From positions 3,472,001 to 3,536,000 of the forward strand of contig NZ_CP026167.1 of the NCBI RefSeq assembly GCF_002902985.1: DNA of 64,000 nucleotides. Reading direction: 5' to 3'. The stretch comes from Leclercia sp. LSNIH1 (GTDB lineage Bacteria > Pseudomonadota > Gammaproteobacteria > Enterobacterales > Enterobacteriaceae). A program made the translations under genes and the position numbers. Every line of letters starts with the position of its first letter. Positions within the stretch are counted from its first letter, which is position 1. A model generated the notes under the pieces. That model did not search any database. It worked only from the letters and a program-made list of their open reading frames with translations, and was not told where the DNA came from. Of the stretch, positions 29,317-45,920 are shown piece after piece.

Positions 29317-29736
29317 TCACCACCCTTTTTCCAGCACCGCAATATTCTTTCCGTCCCGGCGTTCGAGGTCAAAACTGTCTACCGACAGCAGGATCAGTCT
29401 GAGCCCCCGGCCACTTTCTGCGAGCAGCGTGTCGTCATCAAACGCCTCATCACGCGCCGCAGCCAGGCGTTCAGCGGGAAAAGGCGTCCCTGCATCGGTA
29501 AAGCGCAGGGTCACGCCAGCGTCGGCGGCGATAAACGTCACGTTAAAAAGCTGGCGTTGATCTTCGTGCAGCGCATAGCGGATGATATTGGTCGCCGTCT
29601 CGCAGGCGGCGAGATCCAGCGCAAAGCGCCAGGTTTCGTCCACGGGCAGCGAGGCCATCTGCTGCGCCAGCCACTCCGCCAGCGGCGAGAGCGAGCTTAA
29701 CGCGGCCGGAAGCGCAATCTCGTGAGCCACGGCCAT
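29317..29736 (-). CDS. RsbW/SpoIIAB-like anti-sigma-type serine kinase
   Basis: 139 residues, a minimal GHKL ATPase fold. The N-box is LDLAACETATNIIRYAL (Glu and Asn for Mg-ATP), G1 is RFTDAGTPF, and G2 is ESGRGLRLI. In partner-switching systems such kinases phosphorylate a STAS protein and bind a sigma factor or other target. It is last gene of the leftward operon, 1 bp after the STAS gene and downstream of the REC-PP2C phosphatase: the three together are a complete module. No sigma factor is encoded next to it, so the output is probably a protein other than a sigma factor or an unlinked one. Confidence 0.87.
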   Translation of the reverse strand: MAVAHEIALPAALSSLSPLAEWLAQQMASLPVDETWRFALDLAACETATNIIRYALHEDQRQLFNVTFIAADAGVTLRFTDAGTPFPAERLAAARDEAFDDDTLLAESGRGLRLILLSVDSFDLERRDGKNIAVLEKGW

Positions 29737-29737
29737 A

Positions 29738-30076
29738 TTATTGATTCAGCTGCGCCAGCGCTGCGGCGCGGTCCGGGCAGATGCGGAAAATGCGATCCAT
29801 CCGGGTCAGGCTAAACATGTTGCGGATGCCGGGGTTCAGCGCGCAGAGCACCATATCGCCTTTACCGTTCATCATTTTCAGCAGGGAAACCAGGGTTCCC
29901 AGACCGCTACTGTCGATAAAATCGATTTTGCTGAAGTCGACGATCAGGGCTTTGCGATCTTCACCGATCTCGCGGGTAATCGCCTCCTTAAACGCCCCCG
30001 CCACCGAGGCATCCAGCCGACGCACCGCCGGGGTCATAATGTTCACATCGGGCTGCCGCTCTGTATCAATATTCAT
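29738..30076 (-). CDS. STAS-domain anti-sigma factor antagonist-like protein
   Basis: 112 residues, a single STAS domain. The phosphorylation loop is VDFSKIDFIDSSGLGTLVSLL, with Ser56/Ser57 in DSSG as in SpoIIAA and RsbV. Such proteins swap partners by binding the kinase when unphosphorylated. ATG overlaps the stop of the upstream phosphatase gene by 4 bp, and the kinase gene follows after 1 bp, so the stoichiometry of all three is coupled. The downstream target cannot be named. Confidence 0.9.
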   Translation of the reverse strand: MNIDTERQPDVNIMTPAVRRLDASVAGAFKEAITREIGEDRKALIVDFSKIDFIDSSGLGTLVSLLKMMNGKGDMVLCALNPGIRNMFSLTRMDRIFRICPDRAAALAQLNQ

Positions 30077-31278
30077 TGCTCTTCTCCTTTACGCTCAATC
30101 ACTAAGAGTGAAACATCATCGGCCATCGTTGGCTGCTCCTGGTTTTCCCCGCTGCGCCAGTGAATAAGGTGCCGGGCAAACTGCGCCAGGAGATCGTTCA
30201 GTCCGAGGGCGGCCCCGTGCCGCAGCGCCTCCTGCAGCCGCTGCGGGCCAAACTGTTCCCCGGCGAGGTTTTCACATTCGGTAATGCCGTCGCTGAACAG
30301 GCAGAGCCGCTCGCCAGCCGCCAGCGTGAAGTCGACATCCGTCCAGCTGAGATCCGGCATCAGTCCCACCGGTGCTCCGCCGCTGCCAACGGCTCTGACC
30401 TCACCGTCCGGGCTGACGATAAAGGGGGTCGGGTGACCGGCCTGGCACAGTTTCCCCTCGCCGGTGTCAAGATCGATGACGCCGTAAATCATGGTGAAAT
30501 AGCTGACTATCTCTACCTCATCGCTGCAAAAACGGCCGTTGAGGATGCGCACCACCTCGGCGGGGGACGCCACCTCGTCGTCGGCAGTAAAGAGAAAGCG
30601 CTCTACCGCCCTGCCGTGCAAAAACTGGCGGGCCACCGCAAGGGACATCATTGCCGCCCCCACGCCGTGGCCGGAGACGTCCACGCAGTAAAAGCCCAGA
30701 TGGTTATCCAGCGGGAAGACGTTAAAGATATCCCCGGAAACCCAGGCCGAGGGCAGAAAGAGCCAGTCGGAAAAGTAGTCCCGGTAGCGCTGCTGGTGCG
30801 CGGGCAGCACCGACTGCTGGATACGCGCCGCCACCTCGAGATCTTGTTCAATCTGGCGTAGGGCCTCACTAAGGCGGGCGTTGCGGGCGGCGAGGGTCGC
30901 CTCCAGGGAGAGAATACGCGCCCCCGCATGCAGCCGCGCCCGCAGTTCGCTCTGCTCGACAGGCTTGCTGAGAAAGTCATCCGCGCCGGCGTCAAAACCC
31001 AGCGTCAGATCGTCTGGATTTTCACGGGCGGTAAGCAGAATGACATAGATATAGTGACCAATCTGGCGGCTGCGGATCTCCCGGCACAGCGTCAGGCCGT
31101 CCATCTCCGGCATTTCCCAGTCGCTGATGACCAGGCTGACCGGCTGGCTTTCGAGGATCTGCAGCGCGGCGAGGCCGTTTTCCGCCTCGCTGACCTTATA
31201 GCCCCACTGCGCCAGCATCCCGCTCAACAGCCGCCGATAGAGCCGTGAATCTTCCACAATCAGTACATGCTGCGTCAC
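30073..31278 (-). CDS. Response regulator with PP2C (SpoIIE/RsbU-like) phosphatase
   Basis: 401 residues. The REC domain is at residues 1-125, with phospho-acceptor Asp53 (VISDWEMPEMDG), the Glu-Asp pair at 9-10 and Lys in FLSKP. A helical linker (LEATLAARNARLSEALRQIEQDL) leads to a PP2C/SpoIIE domain with metal Asp residues in VSGDIFNVF, DVSGHGVGAAMM and MADDVSLLV. Phosphorylation of REC should switch the phosphatase, which would strip the STAS protein. Architecture as in HsbR of Pseudomonas and SypE-type biofilm regulators. The hybrid kinase at 40201 is a natural candidate phosphate donor. Confidence 0.92.
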   Translation of the reverse strand: MTQHVLIVEDSRLYRRLLSGMLAQWGYKVSEAENGLAALQILESQPVSLVISDWEMPEMDGLTLCREIRSRQIGHYIYVILLTARENPDDLTLGFDAGADDFLSKPVEQSELRARLHAGARILSLEATLAARNARLSEALRQIEQDLEVAARIQQSVLPAHQQRYRDYFSDWLFLPSAWVSGDIFNVFPLDNHLGFYCVDVSGHGVGAAMMSLAVARQFLHGRAVERFLFTADDEVASPAEVVRILNGRFCSDEVEIVSYFTMIYGVIDLDTGEGKLCQAGHPTPFIVSPDGEVRAVGSGGAPVGLMPDLSWTDVDFTLAAGERLCLFSDGITECENLAGEQFGPQRLQEALRHGAALGLNDLLAQFARHLIHWRSGENQEQPTMADDVSLLVIERKGEEQ

Positions 31279-31289
31279 TCTCTCGCCCC

Positions 31290-32189
31290 CTAAAGCGGTA
31301 AGAACCAGATAAGGCTAACCGTTCCTTCACGAAACTTTCCGTTGCCGCTCTGGTGGCCGGGATAACGGGTGCCGGAATAGTTGGCATACTGAACGGAGAA
31401 TGAGCCTGGCGTATAGCCCGCATAGCCGAAGCTGTAGCTGTAATCGCCGTTCCAGGGCTGCTGCTGGCTGCTGTCCGGGAACCAGAACGCCGTGGCGCGC
31501 ACAAAGAAATGTTGTTTGAAGGTGTAACCGCATCCGCCCAGCATCACGTTTTTGTTTTTGCGGATATCGTTGCTCTCCAGATCGTAGTAGCGCGGCACCC
31601 AGCTGTAGCCCACCTGGCAGATAATGGCGTCTCCTTTGTTGATCAACAGCGTATTCTCCACCGGTTTCGGCAGCGAGAATTTGTAGGCCAGGGTTACCGC
31701 CCCTTGCTCGAAGTAAGTGTGACGACCGCTGCCCGAGGTCCAGAAGCGGTTATCCCCGTAGTTGCTGTACACCAGGCTAAGGGTATTCGCGTGCCAGTCG
31801 TCGTAGCCAAAGCTGTAGCGGAAGTCAGCGGTGTAGCGGCTGGTGTCGGTGACCGGTAGACGCGACGTGACGTTGGCAAACCAGTAGCTGTAGGGGGAAT
31901 ATTGCAGGCTCAGGTTCAGCGTCTGGTTATATTTTCGCTTCTGCTCAGCGCTGTCTGAGCTGTTGGGGATAGTCATCCACTGCTCTTTCAGGCCCGAGCT
32001 AAAGCTCAGCGCGCCGGAAAAAACATCCTCATTGCCAGAGAAAAGCCGCCCCCAGCGGCTGGTAAATACCCCCGCCTGCACCGGCTCGCCGTTGTTGTCG
32101 CGCAGTGTCCCGGCATCCTCCTTCGGCGCCGCCTCTGCGCCGGTGGCAATGCACAAGAGTGCGCAGGCCAGCAAATATCTCTCCCGCAT
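31290..32189 (-). CDS. Secreted outer-membrane beta-barrel protein
   Basis: 299 residues. A Sec signal peptide (about residues 1-20, ending GAEA-AP) is followed by many alternating aromatic/polar strands typical of an outer-membrane barrel: YSSPYSYWFANVT-like, RYSFGYDDWHANTLSLVYSNY and YSFGYAGYTPGSFSVQYANYSG. It has Gly- and Tyr-rich strands that resemble the YaiO-type barrel group. Two Cys may form a disulfide. It could be the export channel or surface anchor of the polymer made by the divergent operon. Start 32189 is chosen by its GGAAGGGGAG site and signal peptide; the frame is open 87 bp further. Confidence 0.8.
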   Translation of the reverse strand: MRERYLLACALLCIATGAEAAPKEDAGTLRDNNGEPVQAGVFTSRWGRLFSGNEDVFSGALSFSSGLKEQWMTIPNSSDSAEQKRKYNQTLNLSLQYSPYSYWFANVTSRLPVTDTSRYTADFRYSFGYDDWHANTLSLVYSNYGDNRFWTSGSGRHTYFEQGAVTLAYKFSLPKPVENTLLINKGDAIICQVGYSWVPRYYDLESNDIRKNKNVMLGGCGYTFKQHFFVRATAFWFPDSSQQQPWNGDYSYSFGYAGYTPGSFSVQYANYSGTRYPGHQSGNGKFREGTVSLIWFLPL

Positions 32190-32199
32190 CTCCCCTTCC

Positions 32200-33417
32200 T
32201 TAGTTAGGTATCCAGCGTGCGGCGACGTTATATTTCGCCAGTAGCCACAGCACACCAAGCGCCGCTGCATGTACAACGGTGTTCACTATCCACTCCTGAC
32301 GCCACAGATCGAAGGTCACAAACTGGCTTACCGCGAGCACGACGTAGACGTGCAAAATAAAGGTATAAAGCGAGCGCTGGCCGAGCGGGATAAGAAACCA
32401 GCCCGCCAGCCGGTGAAGAGGTTGCCAGCACCAGGTCAGGAGGAGATAGACCGTTACCATCAGGCAGATATCGTTCAGCACCCTCACCGGGCCCAGACCG
32501 TTTTTTGCCGCCCAGGTATGGTAAAAAGCGTTAAAGTCCGCCGCGGGGAGGGTATGCATCAGGAGCGCGGGCGGCATAAAGGGGTTGGTATGATTCTGGG
32601 CGACAAAGCCGAGGACCAGCGCAACCACCACCAGCGCCGCGACCACCACTTTGCCGGCGGGAGTGCGAGCGAAAGAGAGCAACTCCTCTTTATACCAGCC
32701 GCAACTCATCCCCAGCACAAAAATAAACTGCCACGCCAGCAGCGGAAAGGCGAACTCAAACTGCGACGGGGTTATCCGTACCGGCCAGCGCTGCCAGCAG
32801 CAGTAAACCAGCAGCGAAAGGCCCAGTAGCCAGTACACCTTATCCCTTTGCAACATACCTAAAAACAGGGGGCTTAACAGCAGGAGAAAGATATAGAGCC
32901 CTAAAATTTGCGTCTGGTGAGGGCCAATTTGCAGATAGAGAACAATGTTAAACCAGGTCTCTTTTATCTGCGGCGTCACCGGATAAAGGGACCAGGTAGT
33001 GCCCGAAAAACGGTCGGTAAAATGGATCACTTCAAAAACGTTTATAAAAGGCAAATACCCCAGCAACAGAAAAGATAAAATGATAATAATATTTACCCGA
33101 TATATTTTCCACGCTCTGAGGTAAAGCCCCCAGGAAATAGTGAGCAAGACAGCTTTTTGTAATCTGGCACGATTTAACATCCCCAGCATAAATCCGGAAA
33201 GAATGACAAATCCTTCCGCACCGGTCGTCAGACCAAAACGCTCCCAGGTAAATATATTAAATATCGACATCACTTCTGTATGCGCCACCACCATCATTAC
33301 CAGCGCAATTCCGCGCATAAAATCAATACGCAGATCGCGATTCCCGGCAAGAGAATAACGCCATGCCCTTGATTTTATGTTTTTTTCTTGCGGTATTGCA
33401 GGCGCAATCTGGCTCAT
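32200..33417 (-). CDS. OpgC-like membrane acyltransferase
   Basis: 405 residues with about ten predicted membrane helices. It has the acyltransferase-3/OpgC features LRIDFMRGIALVMMVVAHTE and FGLTTGAEGFVILSGFMLGML near the N-terminus. OpgC of E. coli transfers succinyl groups to osmoregulated periplasmic glucans. By family and by position as first gene of the leftward operon, facing the glycosyltransferase operon, it probably adds an acyl substituent to the polymer made there. It is not opgC itself: no opgGH genes are near. The next gene starts 10 bp downstream. Confidence 0.85.
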   Translation of the reverse strand: MSQIAPAIPQEKNIKSRAWRYSLAGNRDLRIDFMRGIALVMMVVAHTEVMSIFNIFTWERFGLTTGAEGFVILSGFMLGMLNRARLQKAVLLTISWGLYLRAWKIYRVNIIIILSFLLLGYLPFINVFEVIHFTDRFSGTTWSLYPVTPQIKETWFNIVLYLQIGPHQTQILGLYIFLLLLSPLFLGMLQRDKVYWLLGLSLLVYCCWQRWPVRITPSQFEFAFPLLAWQFIFVLGMSCGWYKEELLSFARTPAGKVVVAALVVVALVLGFVAQNHTNPFMPPALLMHTLPAADFNAFYHTWAAKNGLGPVRVLNDICLMVTVYLLLTWCWQPLHRLAGWFLIPLGQRSLYTFILHVYVVLAVSQFVTFDLWRQEWIVNTVVHAAALGVLWLLAKYNVAARWIPN

Positions 33418-33701
33418 AGGGAGTCCTGTTAATGATCCTGAAAAAGCATCGTGCTAATAATTTAGATAGCGTAAATGTCTTCATCTGGCAATTATTGCGG
33501 TACACAGGGAAAAACCTTATTAATAATTAACTTTTATTTAAGCACCCCTAAACTGTTGCAATTTAACCTGCTGGAATATTTTTATCCGCGTTCTACACTT
33601 ACCTTAAATTATGTTTTTGTGAGCGTTATTTCCGTGGCGTTCTCCCTGTCGGTAACAGGCTTTTAATTTATTGTCATCGTGGAATCAGGATATCCTTCGC
33701 T
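33418..33701. promoter_or_regulatory. Divergent control region of the polysaccharide locus
   Basis: 284 bp without a credible gene, AT-rich, between the OpgC-like and GT2 genes. A CTACACTT box (33593-33600) is the classic RpoS-type -10 element, oriented toward the GT2 gene about 100 bp away. No clear -35 box, which suits RpoS. A 63-codon frame at 33475 has no ribosome site and is not called. Confidence 0.5.
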
Positions 33702-35516
33702 ATGGATTTTTATTTTTCCCGTTTTGAACATCGTCGTCCGCCTGAACCGCTTAAAACGCCGCGCTGGGTCATGATGACCTGGCAGGTATTAGCGGTGGCC
33801 GCACTTATTCTTGGCGCCAACTATATTTACTGGCGCTGGACGGCCTCATTAAATACCGACGCGCTCTGGTACGCCATTCCGCTGGTGCTGGCGGAAACCC
33901 TGGCCTGGATCGGCACGGTGCTGTTCACCATTAACTTGTGGAAGGAAGAGGATCCGCCGCAAACGCCCCCGCCGTCTGAGATCAACGACTGCCTGCGGCC
34001 GGAAGATGCCGAGGAGACCAGGCCGATAAAGGTCGATCTCATTATCGCCACCTACTACGAAGATGTGGAGCTGGTGCGGCTCTCCATCCGCGACGCCATG
34101 AAAATGGCCTACCCTGTCCCGCTGGATTACAAGGTACATGTGCTGGATGATGGCCGGCGTCCGGAGATGAAAGCCGTATGCGAAGAGGAAGGCGCTAACT
34201 ACATTACCCGCCAGACCAATATCGGCTTTAAGGCGGGCAACCTGCGTAACGGACTTGAGCAGACCGACGGCGATTTCCTGATCATCTGCGATGCCGATAC
34301 CCGCGTTTTCCCCACGCTGCTCAGCCATACGCTGGGTTATTTCCGCGATCCGGACGTCGCCTGGGTGCAGACGCCCCAGTGGTTCTTTGACCTGCCGGAA
34401 GGGGAGAATCTGGCGGACTGGCTCGGGCGCAGGGCGGGTAAAGCGGGATACAGCCTGGGCTGGCTCGCCCAGAAATTTATCGGCCCGGTGACCCTTGGCC
34501 GGGATCCCTTTTTCAACGATCCGCGCATGTTCTACGACGTGATTTTACGCCGCCGCAACTGGGCTAATGCCGCCTTCTGCTGCGGCGCGGCCTCGGTGCA
34601 TCGACGCGAGGCGGTGATGCAGGCGGCGCTGCGCAGCTACGTCTGGACCGTCGAAGAGGAGATCGACCGCCATACCCGGGACATACGCGATCCGGCGATG
34701 CGCGAAACCCTGCAGGAGGCCATGCGTCCCCATGTAGCCTTCGATACGGAGCTGACCCCATATAAATTCCACGTTTCCGAGGATATTTACACCTCTATCC
34801 TGCTGCACGGCGATGCCGCGCGCCGCTGGCGCTCGGTCATGCACCCGCGCATTGAATCCAAGATGCTCTCCCCGCAGGATATGCTGACCTGGATGATCCA
34901 GCGTTTTAAATATGCCGCCGGCTCGCTGGATATTCTGTTTCACGACAATATCTTCAGCCGCCGCCGCTTTAAGCTCTCCCTGCCGCAAACGCTGATGTAT
35001 GCCACCACCTTCTGGTCCTACATGGCCTGCGTATGGAATACCATTTTCCTGATCTCGCCGATTATCTATCTCTTTACCGGTATTCCCCCGGTATCGGCCT
35101 GGTCTGAGCCCTTTTATCTCCACTTTTTGCCCTTTTTCATCGTCTCCGAGCTGGCGTTTATGTTCGGCACCTGGGGCATATCAGCCTGGGATGGCAGGGC
35201 ATCGTATCTCTCGTTTTTCTCCATGAATCTGCGGGCGCTCGATACGGTGCTGCGCGGCGAGCAGATAAAATTTCACGTCACCCCCAAAGAGCGGCAGACA
35301 GGGCGTTTTCTCTACCTGGTGAAGCCGCAGATCGCTATCGTCGTGCTCACCCTGGCGGGCCTCATCTGGGGCGGAATACAGGTAGCCCGTGGCCAGGTTG
35401 ACGACCCTTCCGGCTACGTCATCAATATTTTCTGGGGTGCGGTGAATATTGCCGCCATGCTGCCGCTGATTCTGGCCGCCGTCTGGACCCCGGCCGAAGA
35501 GGAGGCGAGCCAATGA
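33702..35516 (+). CDS. BcsA-like family 2 processive glycosyltransferase, no PilZ domain
   Basis: 604 residues. Two N-terminal membrane helices (about residues 26-46 and 55-77) precede a cytosolic GT2 domain. Catalytic signatures are DDGRR (Asp149-150), DADTRVF (197-199), VSED (TED equivalent, 359-361) and QRFKY (400-404) in place of the usual Q(Q/R)xRW. Four or more membrane helices follow (about 430-590). There is no C-terminal PilZ domain, unlike E. coli BcsA of about 870 residues, so direct c-di-GMP activation is not expected. No bcsB, bcsC or bcsZ nearby. It probably polymerises a nucleotide sugar across the inner membrane. The next gene overlaps by 4 bp. Confidence 0.9.
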   Translation: MDFYFSRFEHRRPPEPLKTPRWVMMTWQVLAVAALILGANYIYWRWTASLNTDALWYAIPLVLAETLAWIGTVLFTINLWKEEDPPQTPPPSEINDCLRPEDAEETRPIKVDLIIATYYEDVELVRLSIRDAMKMAYPVPLDYKVHVLDDGRRPEMKAVCEEEGANYITRQTNIGFKAGNLRNGLEQTDGDFLIICDADTRVFPTLLSHTLGYFRDPDVAWVQTPQWFFDLPEGENLADWLGRRAGKAGYSLGWLAQKFIGPVTLGRDPFFNDPRMFYDVILRRRNWANAAFCCGAASVHRREAVMQAALRSYVWTVEEEIDRHTRDIRDPAMRETLQEAMRPHVAFDTELTPYKFHVSEDIYTSILLHGDAARRWRSVMHPRIESKMLSPQDMLTWMIQRFKYAAGSLDILFHDNIFSRRRFKLSLPQTLMYATTFWSYMACVWNTIFLISPIIYLFTGIPPVSAWSEPFYLHFLPFFIVSELAFMFGTWGISAWDGRASYLSFFSMNLRALDTVLRGEQIKFHVTPKERQTGRFLYLVKPQIAIVVLTLAGLIWGGIQVARGQVDDPSGYVINIFWGAVNIAAMLPLILAAVWTPAEEEASQ

Positions 35517-36844
35517 GAAAACGCGATGCGCTGCTGTCGGCCCGCAGCTACCTCACTATTCTGATCGGTTTCCTGCTGGGCTTCGCCATCGTCGTCTGGG
35601 TGGAGAAACAGATGCCTTCGCGCGTGGAGAGCAGCGCGGGCATGACCCTGAGTAAAGATTTCCCACCCCTGCCCGCCACGCGTGAACTCACCTTCGATGA
35701 GGCGATCTGGGCCCGGGTAGCCTGGCAATATTATGTCAACAATACCCAGCCGAACGGCCTGGCCAACGCCCACGATGGCGAGCCCTGGTTCAGCCTGTGG
35801 AGCATCGGCAGCTATCTTTTTGCCGTGGCGGCGGCAAAACAGCTCAATATCCTGACCACCGGCGAGTTTGATGAACGCATCACCGCGGCGCTGTTTACGC
35901 TGGGGCAGCTCCCGCTAAATCCCGAAGGGCTACCCGCCGCTTATTATCATGCGGACACGCTGCAAATGCTGGGCAAGCCAGACTCTTCCGCTATCGGCAT
36001 GGGCCGCCTGCTCAATGCCCTGCAAACCCTGCTGTGGCGCTATCCCCAGCACGCCGCCGCCGTGCGCGACCTCTTTAACCAGTGGAAGGTCGGAGCCCTG
36101 ATCGCCAGTAATCCCGCGACCCAGGCCGCAGCGCCGCTCCACCACTGGGCACTGGCGGCGGACGAGCCCAGAAACAGCTTCGGTTATCGTCTGTATGCCA
36201 GCCATACGCTTCGGCTGATCGACAGCGCGGCGGGGCTGGCGGTGACCAACCCGCCGGAGGGGCAGCAGATGATCGATATCGACGGCATTATGGTGCCCGA
36301 CGAGGGGCTACGTACCCCCTGGGGCCGACAGCCATCGCTTATCAGCCTCCCCTACCTGTTAACCGGCCTTGAGCTGGGCTTCGACGCCCAGAGCGCGGAG
36401 ATCGCCTGGCGCATTATGCAGATCCAGCAGCGCCGTCACGGGCTGCGCGTGAGCAAGCCGCCCATCAGCACCGACTACGCTGAGCCCGCGCCGGACTACG
36501 TAAACGATCTGCCCGATCGCCAGCCGCTGCAAACCAGCGCCCTGCGCGATGCCACCCCGGAACAGACCGCGATCACCTCCACCCGCTCCGCCTTCGCCTG
36601 GTACGCTCTGTTCCGCAACGGCTGGAGCGAAGCGCTGCGCCAGCAGGTTCAGACGCTGCAGGTGCCCGGCAAGGGGTGGCAGCGCGGACTTAACCTGAAC
36701 AGCAGCGTGAATGACGTGATTGACGCTGATACCAACGCCATCGTGCTCGAAAGCCTGGCCTATATTGCCCACGGCCAGATGCTCTGTCTGGCCTGTCTGA
36801 GCCTGACGACTTCCCCTACTTCTTCAGCAGGAGCTACGCCATGA
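35513..36844 (+). CDS. DUF3131-family envelope protein 1, N-terminally anchored
   Basis: 443 residues. One N-terminal membrane anchor (about residues 13-32, SYLTILIGFLLGFAIVVWV), the rest periplasmic. The family motif is AWQYYVNNTQPNGLANA. It is paralogous to the two following proteins, but the central block differs and it is the most divergent of the three. An unusual tail (LCLACLSLTTSPTSSAGATP) follows the last helix. DUF3131 function is not known to me; helical-repeat content suggests an alpha/alpha barrel like many glycan-acting proteins (inference). Starts within the GT2 stop (ATGA). Confidence 0.8.
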   Translation: MRKRDALLSARSYLTILIGFLLGFAIVVWVEKQMPSRVESSAGMTLSKDFPPLPATRELTFDEAIWARVAWQYYVNNTQPNGLANAHDGEPWFSLWSIGSYLFAVAAAKQLNILTTGEFDERITAALFTLGQLPLNPEGLPAAYYHADTLQMLGKPDSSAIGMGRLLNALQTLLWRYPQHAAAVRDLFNQWKVGALIASNPATQAAAPLHHWALAADEPRNSFGYRLYASHTLRLIDSAAGLAVTNPPEGQQMIDIDGIMVPDEGLRTPWGRQPSLISLPYLLTGLELGFDAQSAEIAWRIMQIQQRRHGLRVSKPPISTDYAEPAPDYVNDLPDRQPLQTSALRDATPEQTAITSTRSAFAWYALFRNGWSEALRQQVQTLQVPGKGWQRGLNLNSSVNDVIDADTNAIVLESLAYIAHGQMLCLACLSLTTSPTSSAGATP

Positions 36845-38388
36845 AGCTGAAATTTCTCCTCTTTTTTCCTCTTCTGGCCGGGCTTATGGCGTGCTGGCTC
36901 ACGCTTTCCGCTGCACAGGCCGCCAGCGGGCTGCCGGCCTCGGAGTACGAACCGCGCAGCGGCGAGCTAACTCCCAGGGAGATGGCTATCGCCAAAAACG
37001 CCTGGCAATATTTTGTCGCCAACTTCCAGCCCACCACCGGGCTGGTCAATGCGGTAAATAAATACCCCTCCACCACTATGTGGGACAGCGCCTCCTATAT
37101 GGCCGCCATGACGGCGGCGCGGGAGCTGGGGATCATTGATAAAGCCGAGTTTGACCGCCGGATGCTGAAATTGCTCGCCACCCTGAACAAGCTGGATCTT
37201 TTCCGCAACGAGCTGCCCAACAAGGCCTACAACACCATTACCGGCCAGAAGGTGAACTACCAGAATAAACCGGGGGAGATTGGCTTCTCGGCGCTGGATA
37301 TCGGCAGGATGCTGATCTGGCTAAAAGTGATCAAAGAGCGTTACCCGGAGTATGCCAACAGCATCGATAACGTGGTGCTGGGGTGGGACTTCAGCCACGT
37401 TATCGATCCTTGCGGCATGATGTACGGCGCCTACCTGGAGAACGGCCAGCCGAAATATGTGCAGGAAGGACGGCTGGGCTATGAAGAGTATGGCGCGGCA
37501 GGTTTCCAGCTCTGGGGGTTTAGCACCTGTCAGGCCAGCCGCCCGCAGCCTTACGAGCTGGCGGAGATCTACTGCGTGCTGGTGCCCTACGACTCGCGCG
37601 ATCCGCGTCAAACCAGCCAGCATAACTACGTGGTGACCGAATCCTACGTGCTGTACGGCATGGAGTTTGGGTATGACAATCCGCTGGACCGGAATAACAG
37701 CCCGCGCGACTACTCCCATCCGTGGATGAAAAACTTTGCCGACCGGGTCTATCAGGCTCAGGAGAACCGCTACGCGATTACCGGGATACTGTCCGCCCGC
37801 TCCGAGCACCAGCTGGATAAGTCGCCCTACTTTGTGTATGACACCGTCTTTAGCGACGGCTTTAACTGGAACACCATCACCGACAAAGGCCAGTATGTCC
37901 CCAACACCGCCGCCGTATCCCTGAAGGCGGCGCTGGGGATGTGGGTACTCTGGAACTCGCCCTACACCGACCGCCTGCTGGACACCATTGAAAACGCCAA
38001 CGAAGAGGGCAAAGGCTACTACGAGGGGCTTTACGAAAACGGCGACGGCCCGATTAAAGAGTTCACCGCCAATAACAACGGCATCATGCTGGAGGCGCTG
38101 CTGTTCAAGAAAGAGGGCAAGCTGCTGCGGTTTAATACCGACAACCCGAAAAACCGCGATTTCGCCCCTTCGCTCTGGGACAAAAAGCTGGTGGATCTTT
38201 TCGAGCCCAATAATACCCCGCGCAACCGCCCCTTCCTGAGCAGCACCCCGGCGGTTAAGAGCTGGTGTGAACAGACCGGGACCACCCAGCGCACGAAACC
38301 CGCCTGCCAGGCCTGCCAGTGCGCCGCCTGTAGTGCAGACGAGCCTGTCAAACTGCCGCCGGTGACCGCGCAATGCTTAAAACCGTAG
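36841..38388 (+). CDS. DUF3131-family envelope protein 2, secreted, cysteine-rich tail
   Basis: 515 residues. A cleavable Sec signal peptide (MKLKFLLFFPLLAGLMACW...ASA, about 27 residues; an internal Cys at 18 might make it a lipoprotein but the context is weak). The DUF3131 motif is AKNAWQYFVANFQPTTGLVNA, followed by TTMWDSASYMAAM. It ends in a Cys cluster (WCEQ...ACQACQCAACSAD...QC) not seen in the paralogues, which could bind metal or form disulfides. It overlaps gene 1 by 4 bp and gene 3 by 16 bp. Function unknown; a scaffold, hydrolase or polymer-binding role would fit. Confidence 0.82.
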   Translation: MKLKFLLFFPLLAGLMACWLTLSAAQAASGLPASEYEPRSGELTPREMAIAKNAWQYFVANFQPTTGLVNAVNKYPSTTMWDSASYMAAMTAARELGIIDKAEFDRRMLKLLATLNKLDLFRNELPNKAYNTITGQKVNYQNKPGEIGFSALDIGRMLIWLKVIKERYPEYANSIDNVVLGWDFSHVIDPCGMMYGAYLENGQPKYVQEGRLGYEEYGAAGFQLWGFSTCQASRPQPYELAEIYCVLVPYDSRDPRQTSQHNYVVTESYVLYGMEFGYDNPLDRNNSPRDYSHPWMKNFADRVYQAQENRYAITGILSARSEHQLDKSPYFVYDTVFSDGFNWNTITDKGQYVPNTAAVSLKAALGMWVLWNSPYTDRLLDTIENANEEGKGYYEGLYENGDGPIKEFTANNNGIMLEALLFKKEGKLLRFNTDNPKNRDFAPSLWDKKLVDLFEPNNTPRNRPFLSSTPAVKSWCEQTGTTQRTKPACQACQCAACSADEPVKLPPVTAQCLKP

Positions 38389-39767
38389 CCCGCTGGCTGG
38401 CGGTCGCCCTCCTCCTGCTGCTTATTGCCCTCGCCCTCTTCAGCCGGGAGGGCGCAGGGTGGCGCTGGCTGACGAAGGGCGGCTGGCACACCACCGCGCG
38501 CATCGACAGCCTGACGCCGCAGGAGCAGGCGTGGGCCCGCATCGCCTGGCGCTATTTCGAAAATAACACCCAGCCGCAGACCGGGCTGGTGAACGGCAGC
38601 GACAAACAGCCGCGGGTCACCCTCTGGCAAATGGGCGACACCCTCATCGCCCTGCTCGCCGCCCGGGATCTGGGGCTGGTGCAGGAGCCTGAGTTTGACG
38701 CCCGCCTGACGCGCCTGCTCGGCACGCTTAACCGGCTGACCCTGACCGAAACCCGCACCCCGGGCAGGCTTTACTCCAGCCGGACGGCGACCCCCATCGA
38801 CTTTACCGGTAAACCGGCAAAGAGCGGCTGGTCGGCAAAGGATATGGCCCGACTGATGCTGGCCCTGCGGCTTACTGCCGAACGCGCCCCCCAGTATCGC
38901 GAGTATCTGGATAAGATCATTCTGCGCTGGAACTTCTGCCGGGTGATGGATAACGAGGGGGAACTGTGGTCCGCCTCCGTTCAGAACGGCCAGCCGGTGC
39001 TGCGCGAGGAGCTGCGTCTGGGTGAGAGTGAGTACGCCGCCAGCGCGTTTCGCCTGTGGGGATTCCCGGCAGGAAAGGCGTTCACTCCCCCTTCGCGTAA
39101 TGTGATCCTCTTTCAGCGCAGCCTCGCCGTAGATGCCCGGGATCCGCGCACCACCTGGCAACCCTCGCTGCTGACCACCCTCCCCGCGATGCTGCCGGGA
39201 GTGGAGTTCGGCTGGCAGCCGCCCGGCGTACCGTCCGATGTGCAAAAAGCGCTGCGCACCCGGGCAGAAGGGATATGGCTCTCTCAGAAATCGCGCTGGG
39301 AGCAGGACAAAGTGCTCACCGCGCGGGCCGATTTTTATCTCTCCCAGGCGCCCTGGCACGTTGAGGACACCGTTTGGGGAAACGGCTATGCCTGGAACAC
39401 CCTGGGGGACGACGGCAAATACTACCCCCGGCTGGCGCAGGTCTCTACCAAAGCGGTCTTCCTGCTCTGGGCGCTGTGGGAAAACGACTATACCGATGCT
39501 CTGATGGCGGTCACCCGCCATCTCAACAACCCGCAGCAGGGCTGGTTTGAGGGACGTGTTGAGGCGACCGGCGATATCAACCCGACCCTGACCCTCTCCA
39601 CCAACGCCATGGTGCTGGAAGCCCTCTATTACAAACACAACGCCGGGCCGCTGTTTGAAAACGGCCTTACGGATGAGAACAGCTATTTCTCCCGCCGCAC
39701 GACGGATGAATTTAACCCGCCCGGCCTCTGTCTGCCCGGCGAACGGGCCACGAGGGGTGCACCATGA
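38373..39767 (+). CDS. DUF3131-family envelope protein 3, N-terminally anchored
   Basis: 464 residues. An N-terminal hydrophobic anchor (residues 8-22, RWLAVALLLLLIALAL). The family motif is AWRYFENNTQPQTGLVNGSDK with VTLWQMGDTLIALLAARDLG. Clearly closer to protein 2 than to protein 1: shared blocks are RWNFCRVMDNEGELW and SEYAASAFRLWGFP. Starts 16 bp inside gene 2. Three consecutive paralogues suggest gene duplication followed by specialisation of location (anchored, secreted, anchored). Function unknown. Confidence 0.82.
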   Translation: MLKTVARWLAVALLLLLIALALFSREGAGWRWLTKGGWHTTARIDSLTPQEQAWARIAWRYFENNTQPQTGLVNGSDKQPRVTLWQMGDTLIALLAARDLGLVQEPEFDARLTRLLGTLNRLTLTETRTPGRLYSSRTATPIDFTGKPAKSGWSAKDMARLMLALRLTAERAPQYREYLDKIILRWNFCRVMDNEGELWSASVQNGQPVLREELRLGESEYAASAFRLWGFPAGKAFTPPSRNVILFQRSLAVDARDPRTTWQPSLLTTLPAMLPGVEFGWQPPGVPSDVQKALRTRAEGIWLSQKSRWEQDKVLTARADFYLSQAPWHVEDTVWGNGYAWNTLGDDGKYYPRLAQVSTKAVFLLWALWENDYTDALMAVTRHLNNPQQGWFEGRVEATGDINPTLTLSTNAMVLEALYYKHNAGPLFENGLTDENSYFSRRTTDEFNPPGLCLPGERATRGAP

Positions 39768-40198
39768 AGTTTTATCGCGATCTCTTTGAGGCAAGCCTGA
39801 ATCGCGTCTTGCCGGAGAACGACAAAAAGCGCTTTTTTGAGGCCTTCCGGGAGACATTTATCCATATGTCTCCTGAAACGGAGCAGCACTTCGCCCGGCA
39901 TCCGGAGGCGGAGGGCCAGCAGATGCTCTTTAAGAGCTTTTTCGCCATGCTGGCCGTCGATGGTGCGCTCTTCGTGCCGGACTTTCTGGAGCGGCTGGCG
40001 CGAGAGCAGAGCCATGAAGGGCTGCGCCTGCCGCCGCGGTTTTTCGCCCTCTGGCGGGAAGCGATGCTCAGAACCGTTCGCGCCTGCGATCCCCTCTGCG
40101 ACGAGGAGATCCTCACCGCCTGGGCGATGGCGATCGCGCCCGGGCTGGAGTACCTGCGTCGCCAGGCGGAGCTGCACTATCAGGCGGGAGGCGAATAA
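39764..40198 (+). CDS. Globin-like protein
   Basis: 144 residues, all-helical. I propose a globin fold. The segment [20 protein letters not shown] matches globin helices B-C-D, and [23 protein letters not shown] matches the E-F region of flavohaemoglobins. His84 falls at the proximal haem-ligand position, 10 residues before Phe94. [16 protein letters not shown] fits helix H. It could sense oxygen, NO or redox state for the kinase encoded 2 bp downstream, but haem binding is inference. No other domain is attached, so it would have to act through contact. If not a globin, its function is unknown. Confidence 0.6.
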
Positions 40199-40200
40199 CC

Positions 40201-42873
40201 ATGCAAGAGCGATCCTGTTTCGATCTTAACGCGCTGCCCATGGGGGTAATGATCTACGATCCGGCGGAGCGCCTGCTGGCCTGGAACGACCCGGTGACGC
40301 GCTTTTACCCGGTCATCACCCCCTGGCTGGCCGTCGGCGCCACCCTGGAGAGCCTGGCGGAAAAATTTATCGATGCGGGCTATAACATCGATCCTGGCCG
40401 CCGCCAGACCCTGCGCGAAGCGATTATCCGCAACTGCCGTCAGCCGAGTCATCGCGAAGTGCGGCAGTCGGGTCAGCGGCGGCTCTACGTCCAGCATCAG
40501 CGGCTGGCGGACGGCGGCATTATCAGCCTGCATACGGACATCACCGAGCTGGATGAGGCCCAGCGCTCGCGCCACCAGCTGCACGACGATTTTTTACTTA
40601 CCGCGGAGTCGATCCAGATCGGCATCTGGGACTGGCAGGTCTCCCACGACAGCCTGCAGGTGAACGATACCCTGCTGGCGATGGTGGGCGAGTCGCGCAC
40701 GCAGTTGCTCTATCCGCTGCGCTTTTTGCTTAACCTGGTGCACGAGGAGGATCGCGCCACCCTGCGCCAGGCGATGATCGCCTCTCGCCAGGCGCATATG
40801 CCGGTATTCGAATGCGAAATTCGCGTCCAGCACGCCGCCCGGGGCTGGCGCTGGATGTTGATTTCGGGCCAGGTGGTGACTCTCAACATGCAGCAGCAGG
40901 CCGAGCGGGTGATCGGCACCCTGCAGGATATTACCCGTCGTAAAGAGGCGGAACTGCTGGCCATAGAGGCGGCGAAGGTGGCCCGGGAGGCTAACGAGGC
41001 GAAGAGCGCCTTCCTCGCCAACATGAGCCACGAAATTTGCACCCCGATGAACGGCATTCTGGGCATGACCCAGCTCTGTCTGGACACCCCTCTTAACCCG
41101 GAGCAGCGGGAGTATCTTTCGCTGGTCATGAGTTCGGCCCAGTCGCTACTGCATATTATCAATGACATTCTCGACTTCTCCCGCATCGAGTCGGGCAAGA
41201 TGTCGGTGGATGTGGAGCCGCTGGAGATCCGCCCCTTTATTCAGTCGCTGATCCGCCCCCACATGCCCGCCGCCAGCGAAAAAGGCATTGAGCTGCTGGT
41301 GGATATTGCCCCCGAGCTGCCGGAGGTGCTGGTAGCGGACGGTCCCCGGCTGCGCCAGATCCTTACCAACCTGCTGGGCAACGCCCTTAAGTTTACCCAC
41401 CAGGGTGAAGTGCTGCTGGCGATAGCGCCCGCTGACGATGAAGGTCGGTGGCGTTGTCGCATCCGCGACAGCGGCATCGGCATTCCGACGGATAAGCAAA
41501 AAGCGATCTTCGAGGCCTTCAGCCAGGCCGACAGCTCCACCACCCGCCGTTACGGCGGCACCGGACTGGGGCTGACCATCTCGGCCCGGCTGGTGAGCCT
41601 GATGGGTGGGGAGCTGACGGTTGAGAGCCAGCCCGGCGTGGGGAGCGAATTTGCTTTCACCCTGCCGCTGGAGAGCCAGCAGGCCGCCGCGCCTGTGGGG
41701 CGCTTCAATGGCGAACGGGTGCTGGTGGTGGATGACAACAGCACCAACCTGCGCCTGCTTGATACCATGCTTCACCAGATGGGGCTGGCGCCAACCTGCG
41801 TTAATAACGCCGCCGAGGCGCTGCGGCGCGCAGCCGAAGAGAGGCGCTGGGCGCTGATCCTGCTGGACGCGCAAATGCCGGATATGGACGGCGTTTCGCT
41901 GGCGCTCGAACTCTCCGTGCTGCCCCAGACCGAACAAAGCCATATCATTATGCTCAGCTCCATGAGCCGCCATTTTGACGCCAACATGCTTAAGCGCATC
42001 GGCATTGCCCACTATCTGCATAAGCCCATTGCCCAGCGCGAGCTGCATCAGGTGATTGCCAGCGTGCTTGAACCTGCCCCAGTCCTGACCCCGGCCCCCG
42101 TAGCGGCGCCCGCCGTGCCGCAGGCCGGGCTGCGCATTCTGCTGGCCGAGGATAATCTGGTGAACCAGAAAGTCGCCCGGCGCCTGCTGGAGCGGCTCGG
42201 CCACCGGTGCGAAGTGGTCAATAACGGGCGCGAGGCGCTGGAGCGCTGGCGGGAACACGCCTGGGACATTCTGCTGATCGACCTGCAAATGCCGGAGATG
42301 GACGGCGAAACCGCTATCCGCCTGCTGCGGGAAGAGACGCAGGACAGGGGGGGCGCCCACCAGCCCGCCATCGCCATGACCGCCCACGCCATGCAGGGAG
42401 ATAAAGAACGCTGCCTGGCGATGGGGTTCGACGGCTATATTGCCAAGCCGGTGAGCCAGGAGGCGTTGCAGCAAGAGATTGCGCGCGTCGGCCCGGAGAG
42501 TCATAACCCGCAGAGTGATAAAGGGCTGCCGGACGAAGCCCGGCTATTAAAACAGTGCGCGGACGATCCCGCTCTGGTACAGGAGCTGCTGGATCTGTTC
42601 GGCGAGGGGCTCGACGAGGCGGTAGCAACAATAGCCCGGGCGATCGACAGTGACGACCGCGAGGCTCTGGGCCGGGCGGCGCACCGGCTTCGCGGCGAAG
42701 CCGCCACCCTCGGCTTTACCGGACTGGCAGAGCGGCTCCAGCAGTTAGAGAGCCAGGCGACAACGCTGGACCCGGCCGGGCTTAAGGCGCTGCGCGGCGA
42801 GCTCTTAAACGAGGCCGGACGCGGTGCCGCCTGGCTGCACCACCGGGCGCAGGAGATAAATCATGATCCCTAA
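40201..42873 (+). CDS. Hybrid sensor histidine kinase (PAS-PAS-HK-REC-REC-Hpt)
   Basis: 890 residues, no membrane helix, so cytosolic. Two PAS domains (about residues 5-120 and 130-245) precede the HisKA domain, with phospho-acceptor His277 in [13 protein letters not shown]. The residue after Ile is Cys280 where nearly all family members have Arg. The HATPase has [10 protein letters not shown]1 RDSGIGIP and G2 GGTGLGL. Two receiver domains follow, with Asp556 and Asp694, and an Hpt domain with His828 ([14 protein letters not shown]). A full His-Asp-His-Asp relay is therefore encoded. It sits 2 bp after the globin-like gene and overlaps the GH2 gene by 11 bp. The REC-PP2C protein of the divergent operon is a likely target. 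Confidence 0.9.
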
Positions 42874-45061
42874 ACTTATTCTGCCGCTGGTCGTCTGGCT
42901 TCCGCTGGCGCAAGCGGCGCCTGTGCCGGTCACCTGGTCGCTGGCCGGGCAGTGGCGCGTGCATGATGCCAACGACAATACTTTTAACGGGGCCAGCGCC
43001 CCTGACAGCGGCTGGCGCACGCTCCGGGTGCCCGCCAACTGGTACAGCGCCGGATACGATCATCAGGGCGCGCTCTGGTACCGTCACGAATTTACCCTGC
43101 CGGAGCGCGCGCCGGATACCATGGCTACCCTGGTGTTTGACGGCGTGGATTATTTCGCCGACGTGACGCTCAACGGCAAGGCGCTTGCCCGCCACGAAGG
43201 CTATTTCCAGCGCTTCCCGGTGGATATAAGCGACGCCCTGCGCCGCCATAACCGGCTCGCCGTTCGGGTGGAGAGCCCGTTCGAAGATCCGAAAACCATC
43301 TGGCCGCTGCACAAAACCCTGGTCAAAGGGGTGCTTAACCAGCACGACACCCGCCCCGGCGGCGCCTGGTCCGAGCACGGTCAGGATGCCAACTCCGGCG
43401 GCATCTGGGCGCCGGTGAAGCTGCACCTGAGCCGCGGCGTGACGATTGACGAGGTGATCCTGCGCCCGGACTGGCGCGAGGGGCTGCAAAACCCCATCTT
43501 GCGCGCCGAGATTCGCTACCGGGCGCTGGCGGATGGGCACGCCACCCTGCGCCTCTCCGCCGCGCCGGACAATTTCAGCGGCCCGGACTTTCAGCAGGAC
43601 TTCCCGGTCACGCTCAACAGCACCGCCGGCACCCTGAACGTCTCGCTACCAATGCGCTCCGCCAGGCTCTGGTGGCCGGTGGGCGTCGGCAAGCCGAACC
43701 TCTACCGGGTGCGGGCCTCGCTGCGGGATGAGCAGGGGCTGATGGATACCGCCCTCACCCGAACCGGGTTACGCAAGCTGGAGGAGCAGCCGGACAATAA
43801 AGGCTGGCTCATCAACGACCGTCGGCTGTTCATCAAGGGCAGTAACTATATTGGCTCCCCCTGGCTCGGCACCATGACGCGGGCAAAATACCGCCGGGAT
43901 TTCGAACTGGTGGAGGCGATGAACGCCAACGCCATTCGCGTCCACGGGCATGTGGCAGGCCGCGCGCTCTATGATGTAGCGGATGAGATGGGGCTGATGA
44001 TCTGGCAGGATGTGCCCCTGCAGTGGGGCTATGATGACAGCGTCGCCTTTGCCGATAATGCGGTTCGCCAGACCCGTCAGATGGTTGAGCAGTTCGGTAA
44101 CTCGCCGGCCATCATCGTCTGGGGCGGGCACAACGAGCCGCCCTGGAACTCACCGTGGATGGAAAAACGCTTCCCGGACTGGAACAAAAGCTTAAACCAG
44201 TCCCTGACGAAACGGGTGGGCGACACGCTCGCGGAAGATAGCTCCCGCATCGTGCACCGTTTTTCCGCCGTGGAGGAGCACTACTGGGCGGGCTGGTACT
44301 TCGGCACGATACGCGATCTGCTGGCGCCCGCCAAAACCGGGATTATCACCGAGTTTGGCGCCCAGGCGCTGCCGAGGCTCTCCACCCTGAAAACCTTCAT
44401 CCCTGAGAGCCTTATGTGGCCGAAGAGTACGGCGGCGGACGATCCCGGCTGGACGCACTGGAAGTACCATAACTTCCAGCCCTTCCAGACCTTTAAATTC
44501 GCCAATATTCCCCGGGGCAATACTATCCAGGAGATGATTGCCAATACCCAGGCGTATCAGGCGCAGCTGGTGGCGACGGCGGCGGAGAGCTATCGCCGAC
44601 AGCGCTATCAGCCGGTGACGGCCCTCTTCCACTTTATGTTTGTCGAAACCTGGCCCTCGATTAACTGGGGGGTGGTGGATTACCTGCGCAAACCGAAGGC
44701 GGGTTACTACGCCCTGAAGCGCGCCTACCAACCGATCCTCCCCTCCATCGAACCCGTTACAGATGTCTGGCGTCAGGGACGCGAGGCGACGGTCCGCCTT
44801 TGGGCGATCAACGATACCTGGTCAGCCTGCGAGGATTGCCGCCTGACGTGGCAGGTGAAGCAGAGCGGAAAACGGCTTGCTGAAGGCGAGACGATCATGA
44901 CCCTGCCGCCCGACTCGGGGACCAGGGTAAAGGAGATTACCGTCACGCCGACCAGCGTTGAACGAGTGACCATTGAGTATCGCATTGAGAATAACGCGCG
45001 AGAAACGGTGGGCAAAAACCGGCGTGAAGAGTCTGTCGAGGCGTCGCCCGCCGGGAAGTAA
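42863..45061 (+). CDS. Secreted GH2-family glycoside hydrolase
   Basis: 732 residues. Signal peptide of about 18 residues ([18 protein letters not shown]). N-terminal jelly-roll and immunoglobulin-like GH2 domains are followed by the TIM barrel. The acid/base Glu425 is in [10 protein letters not shown] and the nucleophile Glu497 is in ITEFGAQA, as in beta-mannosidase and exo-glucosaminidase type GH2. It would act in the periplasm or outside, probably on the polymer made by this operon. BcsZ (GH8) plays a comparable role in cellulose operons. The linkage specificity cannot be read from sequence. Starts 11 bp inside the kinase gene. A hairpin follows. Confidence 0.87.
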
Positions 45062-45301: not shown

Positions 45302-45634
45302 GTGTGCCATGCGATAAAATTTATCGAGACGTCACTGTTTACGCGGCAAATCAAACAGATCGCGACTGATGATGAACTCCTGACGTTACAAAGAGAGCTC
45401 ATTGCCTTTCCGGACAAAGGTGATGTTATTCAGAATACCGGCGGGCTGCGAAAAGTCAGGATGGCCACGGGTAGCCAGGGTAAAAGCAGCAGCGCCAGGG
45501 TAATTTACCTTCTGGCAACACGGGAGATTATCTGGCTGGTGCTCGCTTATCCGAAAAGCGCCAAAGAGAATCTCACTGATGCGGAAAAGGTTGAACTAAA
45601 AAAACTGACAACCTTACTGAAAAACGAGGTGTGA
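45302..45634 (+). CDS. HigB2/RelE-type toxin
   Basis: 110 residues. The FPDKGDVIQNTGGLRKVRMA and ARVIYLLATREIIWLVLAYPKS blocks match the HigB2-type RelE mRNA interferase family, which cleaves mRNA at the ribosome. GTG 45302 is the only start that fits, with GGAGAGAG upstream. The antitoxin gene follows 1 bp downstream (toxin first, as in higBA). The family usually inhibits growth under stress. Likely on an accessory segment inserted between the polysaccharide locus and paaY. Confidence 0.85.
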   Translation: MCHAIKFIETSLFTRQIKQIATDDELLTLQRELIAFPDKGDVIQNTGGLRKVRMATGSQGKSSSARVIYLLATREIIWLVLAYPKSAKENLTDAEKVELKKLTTLLKNEV

Positions 45635-45635
45635 A

Positions 45636-45920
45636 ATGCATTTTTTTGACGAACTCAAAACGTCCCTGGAAGAGGCGGTTGACATCAAAAACGGGACCAA
45701 AGCCCCTTCCCGAGTTACCCGCTATGAGATTGCCGATGTCAAAGCGATCAGAGAGCAGCTCAACGTCTCCCAGGCAGAAATGGCAAAAGCGCTGGGCACC
45801 AGCGTGGATACCATCAAAAGCTGGGAATCCAGAAGACGTAACCCCACCGGCCTGGCAGCAAAAGTGCTGGCCACGATTAAGGCGAACCCGGCATTCTTTT
45901 ACGAACTGGCTGCGCATTAA
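45636..45920 (+). CDS. HigA2/XRE-type antitoxin
   Basis: 94 residues. An N-terminal extension of about 45 residues likely contacts the toxin; it is followed by an HTH (VKAIREQLNVSQAEMAKALGTSVDTIKSWESRRRNPTG), as in HigA2. It neutralises the toxin and binds the operator palindrome at 45251-45282. Translated directly after the toxin stop. A terminator ends the operon. Confidence 0.87.
   Translation: MHFFDELKTSLEEAVDIKNGTKAPSRVTRYEIADVKAIREQLNVSQAEMAKALGTSVDTIKSWESRRRNPTGLAAKVLATIKANPAFFYELAAH

Follow-up and report, generated by a model that had tools for sequence, protein, structure and literature searches.

What does a bacterium make, and under what control, with a cellulose synthase-like enzyme encoded beside three DUF3131 proteins, a phosphorelay kinase and a set of partner-switching proteins? 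The question is raised by a locus of Leclercia sp. LSNIH1, found in a stretch of 64,000 nucleotides (contig NZ_CP026167.1, positions 3,472,001 to 3,536,000; hereafter the window, whose numbering is used throughout). Two divergent operons with 12 genes lie within 15.7 kb (29317..45061) and are separated by 284 bp. Together they appear to form a block that produces a glucose-type polymer, trims and acylates it and secretes it, all governed by an on/off switch belonging to the block, and we put the chance that this is a self-contained, synthase-dependent β-glucan system at somewhat better than even; export of a long polymer is uncertain. An earlier note on this DNA had proposed a polysaccharide locus that brings its own signalling, a phosphorelay and a partner switch. 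Open reading frame (ORF) and Pfam scans found every gene that it had claimed in its place, and the genes, with invariant signalling residues, support that description.

Gene content and conservation of the locus

The rightward operon is listed first, then the leftward one, each in the order in which it is read.

33702..35516, plus strand, CelA-like GT2 processive synthase, 604 aa (PF00535 and PF13641)
35513..36844, plus strand, DUF3131 protein D1, 443 aa, hydrophobic N-terminus, candidate glutamates mostly lost (PF11329, E 3.4e-64)
36841..38388, plus strand, DUF3131 protein D2, 515 aa, secreted-type N-terminus and Cys-rich tail (modelled fold GH189-like)
38373..39767, plus strand, DUF3131 protein D3, 464 aa, hydrophobic N-terminus (PF11329, E 2.3e-96)
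39764..40198, plus strand, globin-fold protein, 144 aa (sequence match to 1tu9, E 6.7e-6)
40201..42873, plus strand, hybrid histidine kinase, PAS-PAS-HisKA-HATPase-REC-REC-Hpt, 890 aa (Pfam)
42863..45061, plus strand, secreted-type GH2 glycosidase, 732 aa (Pfam GH2 domains; PDB 5n6u, E 1.9e-39)
32200..33417, minus strand, OpgC-type membrane acyltransferase, 405 aa (PF10129, E 3.7e-51)
31290..32189, minus strand, secreted-type protein, probable small outer-membrane barrel, 299 aa (conserved position, strand-rich model)
30073..31278, minus strand, response regulator fused to a PP2C (SpoIIE) phosphatase, 401 aa (PF00072 and PF07228)
29738..30076, minus strand, STAS-only protein of the anti-anti-sigma type, 112 aa (PF01740, E 3.1e-18)
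29317..29736, minus strand, RsbW-like serine kinase (HATPase_c_2), 139 aa (PF13581, E 1.5e-15)

Chance clustering was rejected: Pfam matches were obtained for ten of the 12 genes (best E-values 1e-12 to 1e-128), gene order is preserved in relatives, and parts of the set recur in distant and order-level loci. The proposal of a single conserved unit was thus borne out. Of the six junctions in the rightward operon, five are overlaps, of 4 to 16 bases. An overlap of the barrel and acyltransferase genes was not upheld: the most likely start of the barrel gene is 32189, which gives a signal-peptide-like beginning, and not the TTG at 32276, so that the two genes are separate. The copy of this protein on a Salmonella plasmid is annotated with 299 aa.

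A search of genome contigs with D2 yielded 31 loci, two of which (L032, a Rickettsiaceae metagenome-assembled genome, and L034, Bathyarchaeota) have distant DUF3131 likeness only. The remaining 29 all belong to Enterobacterales: all 12 genes are present in 15 (in L029 as fragments), every gene except that of the globin-fold protein in nine (Pantoea, Erwinia, Mixta and Siccibacter), three run off the ends of their contigs (L011, L015, L016) and two are rearranged (L025, Budvicia; L026, Yersinia nurmii). With a threshold of E ≤ 1e-60, GT2 orthologues were found in 15 of 398 genomes of the phylum and 10 of 295 of the order, the Leclercia genome being counted in both. From the 14 other phylum genomes we fetched 13 distant loci, several on short contigs; the 14th genome (G324) contributed just 3.2 kb, on which GT2 and DUF3131 are present. 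Profiles matched DUF3131 in 12 of the 13, STAS in 10, PP2C in six and RsbW in five. Each of five further order loci from outside the family (L106-L110) encodes GT2 with three or more DUF3131 proteins, the barrel protein, and PP2C, STAS and RsbW, and a Rhodobacteraceae plasmid carries, consecutively, PP2C-STAS-RsbW-kinase-DUF3131-acyltransferase-GT2-DUF3131.

The GT2 synthase

Among NCBIfam and PDB sequences, a comparison that included no mannan synthase, the nearest relatives of the GT2 are cellulose synthases. The catalytic acids of processive GT2 enzymes (DDG, DxD and ED) are present as D149-D150-G151, D197-A-D199 and E360-D361, and are invariant in 28 sequences, as is QRFKY, which stands in place of the BcsA acceptor motif QxxRW. 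An ordinary cellulose synthase was rejected, as the score against the BcsA equivalog TIGR03030 (196.3 bits) is far under the cut-off of 699.1 and a separate BcsA-type gene lies far away in the same genome. No PilZ domain was found in the GT2 by Pfam scan, including at the C-terminal position expected for BcsA. The locus resembles the bcs cellulose locus in having a CelA-type GT2 and a periplasmic (α/α)6-type partner (BcsZ in bcs), but differs from it by QRFKY and by the absence of PilZ, BcsB and BcsC from the Pfam scan.

The DUF3131 proteins

No DUF3131 match was found in the genome outside the locus. The modelled fold of D2 is of the (α/α)6 type common to the GH189/SGL clan; the closest match is the GH189 cyclization domain of cyclic β-1,2-glucan synthase (NdvB/ChvB), and BcsZ is likewise among the fold matches. 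Sequence likeness to GH189 is confined to the N-terminal part (E 8.9e-5; hhalign 95.6% across residues 48-164). The model suggests that the DUF3131 proteins may be periplasmic glucan-active proteins. In D2, residues E209, E215, E216, E275, E322, E395, E399 and E418 are invariant in 29 of 29 sequences, and E275 and E418 in all 87 sequences of the DUF3131 paralogues. By eye only, E215/E216 and E322 fall in the same order as the GH189 acid/base E1356 and nucleophile E1442.

Several observations weigh against an enzymatic role of this kind. Profiles gave no alignment between GH189 and DUF3131 in the catalytic half, E215/E216, E275 and E322 being matched by eye, and mapping of the catalytic residues by profile alignment did not recover them; the sole pairing to emerge, N411/N412 with H1536/H1537, appeared at a non-significant score in one alignment and not in another. 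In a wider D2 alignment of 40 sequences, E215/E216 are conserved in at least 90% yet are not invariant, and small profiles of D3 against the synthases reached a probability of 19% only. The DUF3131 proteins might instead be periplasmic chain-binding export guides, which we regard as doubtful. The unalignable half argues for guides, as do the replacement of E215 by Arg (27 of 29) and of E322 by Thr, Ser or Ala (26 of 29) in D1, and by Ser (28 of 29) and Asp (25 of 29), respectively, in D3. The eight invariant glutamates of D2, and the two kept in every paralogue sequence, argue against them.

PF11329 weakly matches five ORFs of 2,855-2,888 aa, one of which aligns over its available 1096 aa to the solved NdvB. 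The cyclic β-1,2-glucan synthases are single multidomain proteins of ~2,800 aa that also comprise GT84 and GH94 domains, whereas the locus has separate genes for a CelA-like GT2 and three DUF3131 copies and, by Pfam, no GH94-type gene. The individual parts are of known kinds; what is new here is the way they are combined and the resemblance of DUF3131 to GH189. Our literature search found nothing linking DUF3131 with exopolysaccharide, nor anything joining OpgC and cellulose synthase in Pantoea, and the listed titles on partner switches and synthases do not concern this locus.

Beyond its own barrel, D2 ends in its Cys-rich tail (residues ~475-515), where the majority consensus reads CxxCxCxxC. 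Other lineages have long DUF3131 proteins, almost double the usual length at ~850-900 aa (several among P0031-P0066).

The putative product

The acyltransferase of the earlier note is present and can be refined to the OpgC type (174.6 bits against PF10129, gathering cut-off 21.4). Its outer-membrane barrel is plausible: the model is strand-rich but of low confidence (pLDDT, the predicted local distance difference test, 63), the protein has no Pfam or NCBIfam family, and Foldseek gave no match at E ≤ 1e-3. The best, non-significant matches include NanC and Tsx. These matches, the OpgC-type enzyme and the GH189 likeness would fit an osmoregulated periplasmic-type, possibly cyclic, glucan or oligosaccharide, with the small barrel freeing short chains, in place of a surface polymer. 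We think this doubtful as well, as the GT2 resembles synthases of secreted polymers and its orthologue in the distant locus L088 (6080-10796) adjoins a TPR protein that matches the PgaA barrel under the cut-off; no DUF3131 was found in that fetched stretch.

Sugar and linkage of the product are putative, deduced from gene families, and two findings tell against glucose. The closest solved relatives of the GH2 enzyme are β-mannosidases and it also matches Mannosidase_ig, and the nucleotidylyltransferase of related loci scores best, far under cut-off, with mannose-1-phosphate guanylyltransferase. Both would suit a mannan or glucomannan made by a CslA-like GT2 and trimmed by a true β-mannosidase. 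That product is nevertheless improbable in view of the DUF3131 fold, nearest to β-1,2-glucan enzymes, the GT2 relationships given above, and the genes added in variant loci, which bear on the product. The Budvicia-type variant (L025, L097) has in the same run a glycogen (α-glucan) phosphorylase, an enzyme that yields glucose-1-phosphate, together with the sugar-1-phosphate nucleotidylyltransferase and a receiver-GGDEF protein; L084 has a GH16 gene, whose top NCBIfam model, β-glucanase BglS, scores 189 bits (cut-off 300), and L106 a GH9 gene.

The phosphorelay and partner switch

All signalling residues are intact: H277, D556, D694 and H828 of the hybrid kinase are invariant in 28 sequences, and invariant in 27 are D53, K105, D183, D200, D387 and D388 of the receiver-PP2C protein (the sole PF07228 match in the genome), D55-S56-S57 of the STAS protein, and E46, N50, D81, G83, G109 and G111 of the RsbW-like kinase. 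The partner-switching module has its phosphatase, STAS phosphoserine site and HATPase kinase. Its putative wiring and polarity are deduced from the protein families. The hybrid kinase would signal through Hpt to the receiver-PP2C protein, which would dephosphorylate STAS; free STAS would switch synthesis on, and re-phosphorylation by RsbW would switch it off.

The earlier note's globin-like protein does match the solved globin fold 1tu9, but has no Pfam match and no conserved proximal histidine. At the position aligned to the 1tu9 histidine, assumed here to be proximal, 16 of 17 globin-fold sequences have Gln, and a His occurs two residues later in two of the 17. The protein is probably haem-less, and sensing of haem, or of oxygen or NO, by it was rejected as the default.

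The target of free STAS is most likely the synthase complex itself. A partial precedent is the syp polysaccharide locus of Vibrio fischeri, where, in the description available, the STAS protein SypA is switched by phosphorylation, is active when unphosphorylated, and is governed by the dual kinase/phosphatase SypE (PMC8256260); in the Leclercia locus these two activities are divided between two proteins. In five of the distant loci (L090-L094) the STAS gene is kept by the GT2 gene, adjacent in four and one gene apart in L090, and no PP2C or RsbW was found on the fetched contigs, which are short and reach just 1.8-4.4 kb upstream of STAS. This pattern would favor action at the synthase. The STAS sites of the five read VDSTG, MDASG, MDASG, ANSSG and ANSSG; Ala at the phosphosite is found in the two loci of genomes G406 and G492.

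Other results caution against that argument. The contigs of L090-L094 span 4.6-18 kb, so that genes for PP2C or RsbW might be located a little past their ends, and the absence of these genes is weak evidence. PP2C matches lie on other contigs in all six genomes of the L090-L094 family, and short RsbW-type ORFs (176-180 aa) occur elsewhere in three (G348, G324, G409); in G296, G406 and G492 (67% complete) PF13581 is matched only in ORFs of at least 366 aa. STAS itself was not found in three of the 13 distant loci, nor DUF3131 in L088.

The gap between the operons holds one further feature.

33571..33601, plus strand, sigma-S-like promoter: CTGGAA, 17 nt, TACACT inside TCTACACTTA (33592-33601), a KCTAYACT match

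It bears on a sigma-factor route, in which RsbW, or the receiver-PP2C protein, would hold σS and free σS would transcribe the GT2 operon; this is rather unlikely. KCTAYACT, a σS form of the -10 element, occurs once in the window, both strands counted, at 33592 (110 nt before GT2), and 13 of 14 close loci (all but L004) have it 108-117 nt upstream of GT2, counts that are not independent because the loci are related. It arose on the same strand in 79 of 5000 shuffles of the gap, and a simple σ70 promoter scan of 33300-33800 found none. The receiver-PP2C protein matches NCBIfam RssB_Pseudo with 138.9 bits, under the cut-off of 700. HsbR-HsbA of Pseudomonas aeruginosa and CrsR-CrsA of Shewanella, which likewise comprise a response regulator and a STAS-type antagonist, control RpoS (PMC6482189), and RpoS and FlgM are their targets; in Leclercia the trio is tied to a synthase. 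Speaking against the sigma-factor route, 13 other loci (Pantoea, Erwinia, Siccibacter, Mixta, Chimaeribacter) have the motif on the opposite strand (eight) or not at all (five), no sigma factor family was found among the 12 genes by Pfam scan, and L090-L094 keep STAS with GT2 but show no RsbW on the fetched contigs.

Proposed pathway

The β-glucan system would then work as follows. GT2 would polymerize nucleoside diphosphate-glucose through the inner membrane, and the DUF3131 proteins would meet the nascent chain at the periplasmic side. There D2, as a GH189/β-1,2-glucanase-like protein, may cut or re-join the chain and perhaps cyclize it, with D3 an altered paralogue and D1 probably a non-catalytic one. 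The OpgC-type acyltransferase would decorate the product, the small barrel release it and GH2 trim it. A more specific form, which we offer tentatively and hold to be rather unlikely, is a "split" cyclic-glucan-type synthase, in which the CelA-like GT2 would pass its chain to stand-alone GH189-like DUF3131 transglycosylases for cyclizing or re-joining, while unphosphorylated STAS would bind the synthase directly and replace control by cyclic di-GMP (c-di-GMP). Such direct gating would be a new control of a processive synthase. If the β-glucan proposal is right, DUF3131 would gain a function, the β-1,2-glucan enzyme clan would extend to polymer-secretion loci, and the locus would allow direct gating of a glycan synthase by a STAS protein to be put to the test.

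Distribution and mobility

Three DUF3131 genes are present in 18 of 246 sampled genomes of the family (~7%, this one included); six more have one weak partial DUF3131 match each, five of these in synthase-length ORFs. Within the genus the block is absent from two other genomes and decayed in a third (G819:C1:2319827-2330714, L111), where the leftward operon is unmatched, GT2 is shortened at its start and GH2 is split with a gap. Of the 29 Enterobacterales loci, one (L029, Leclercia) has the flanking paaXY, and none has the MFS/GNAT genes of the left side (flanks of at most 10 kb from D2), so that the location of the block varies. A conjugative IncF plasmid of Salmonella enterica serovar Rubislaw has all 12 genes (protein identity 64-94%, 11 measured), and copies of DUF3131 and GT2 also occur on plasmids of Pantoea. 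In 5,426 E. coli genomes there was no match to 33702-40195 at the level of likeness that megablast detects. From its varied location, patchy presence and plasmid copies, the block is an accessory cassette, probably movable, carried by scattered gut- and plant-associated bacteria.

The locus is "undescribed", as the earlier note had it, with respect to function and product, but the same gene list has been named, without function in the portion of the source available, as accessory block 3b of Klebsiella pneumoniae, tied to population structure: cellulose synthase, three DUF3131, OpgC, hybrid kinase, anti-sigma factor and antagonist (PMC12974863). This comparison is of gene lists only. No literature on the product, DUF3131 function or switch of the locus was found, in a search that covered few subscription journals and no Klebsiella sequence. 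If the proposal is right, a polymer system with no known product would be present in some 7% of the sampled family genomes, on Pantoea and Salmonella plasmids and, by gene list, in a Klebsiella block.

Between the cassette and paaY, the window also holds a RelE-family toxin and helix-turn-helix antitoxin pair, at 45302-45634 and 45636-45920.
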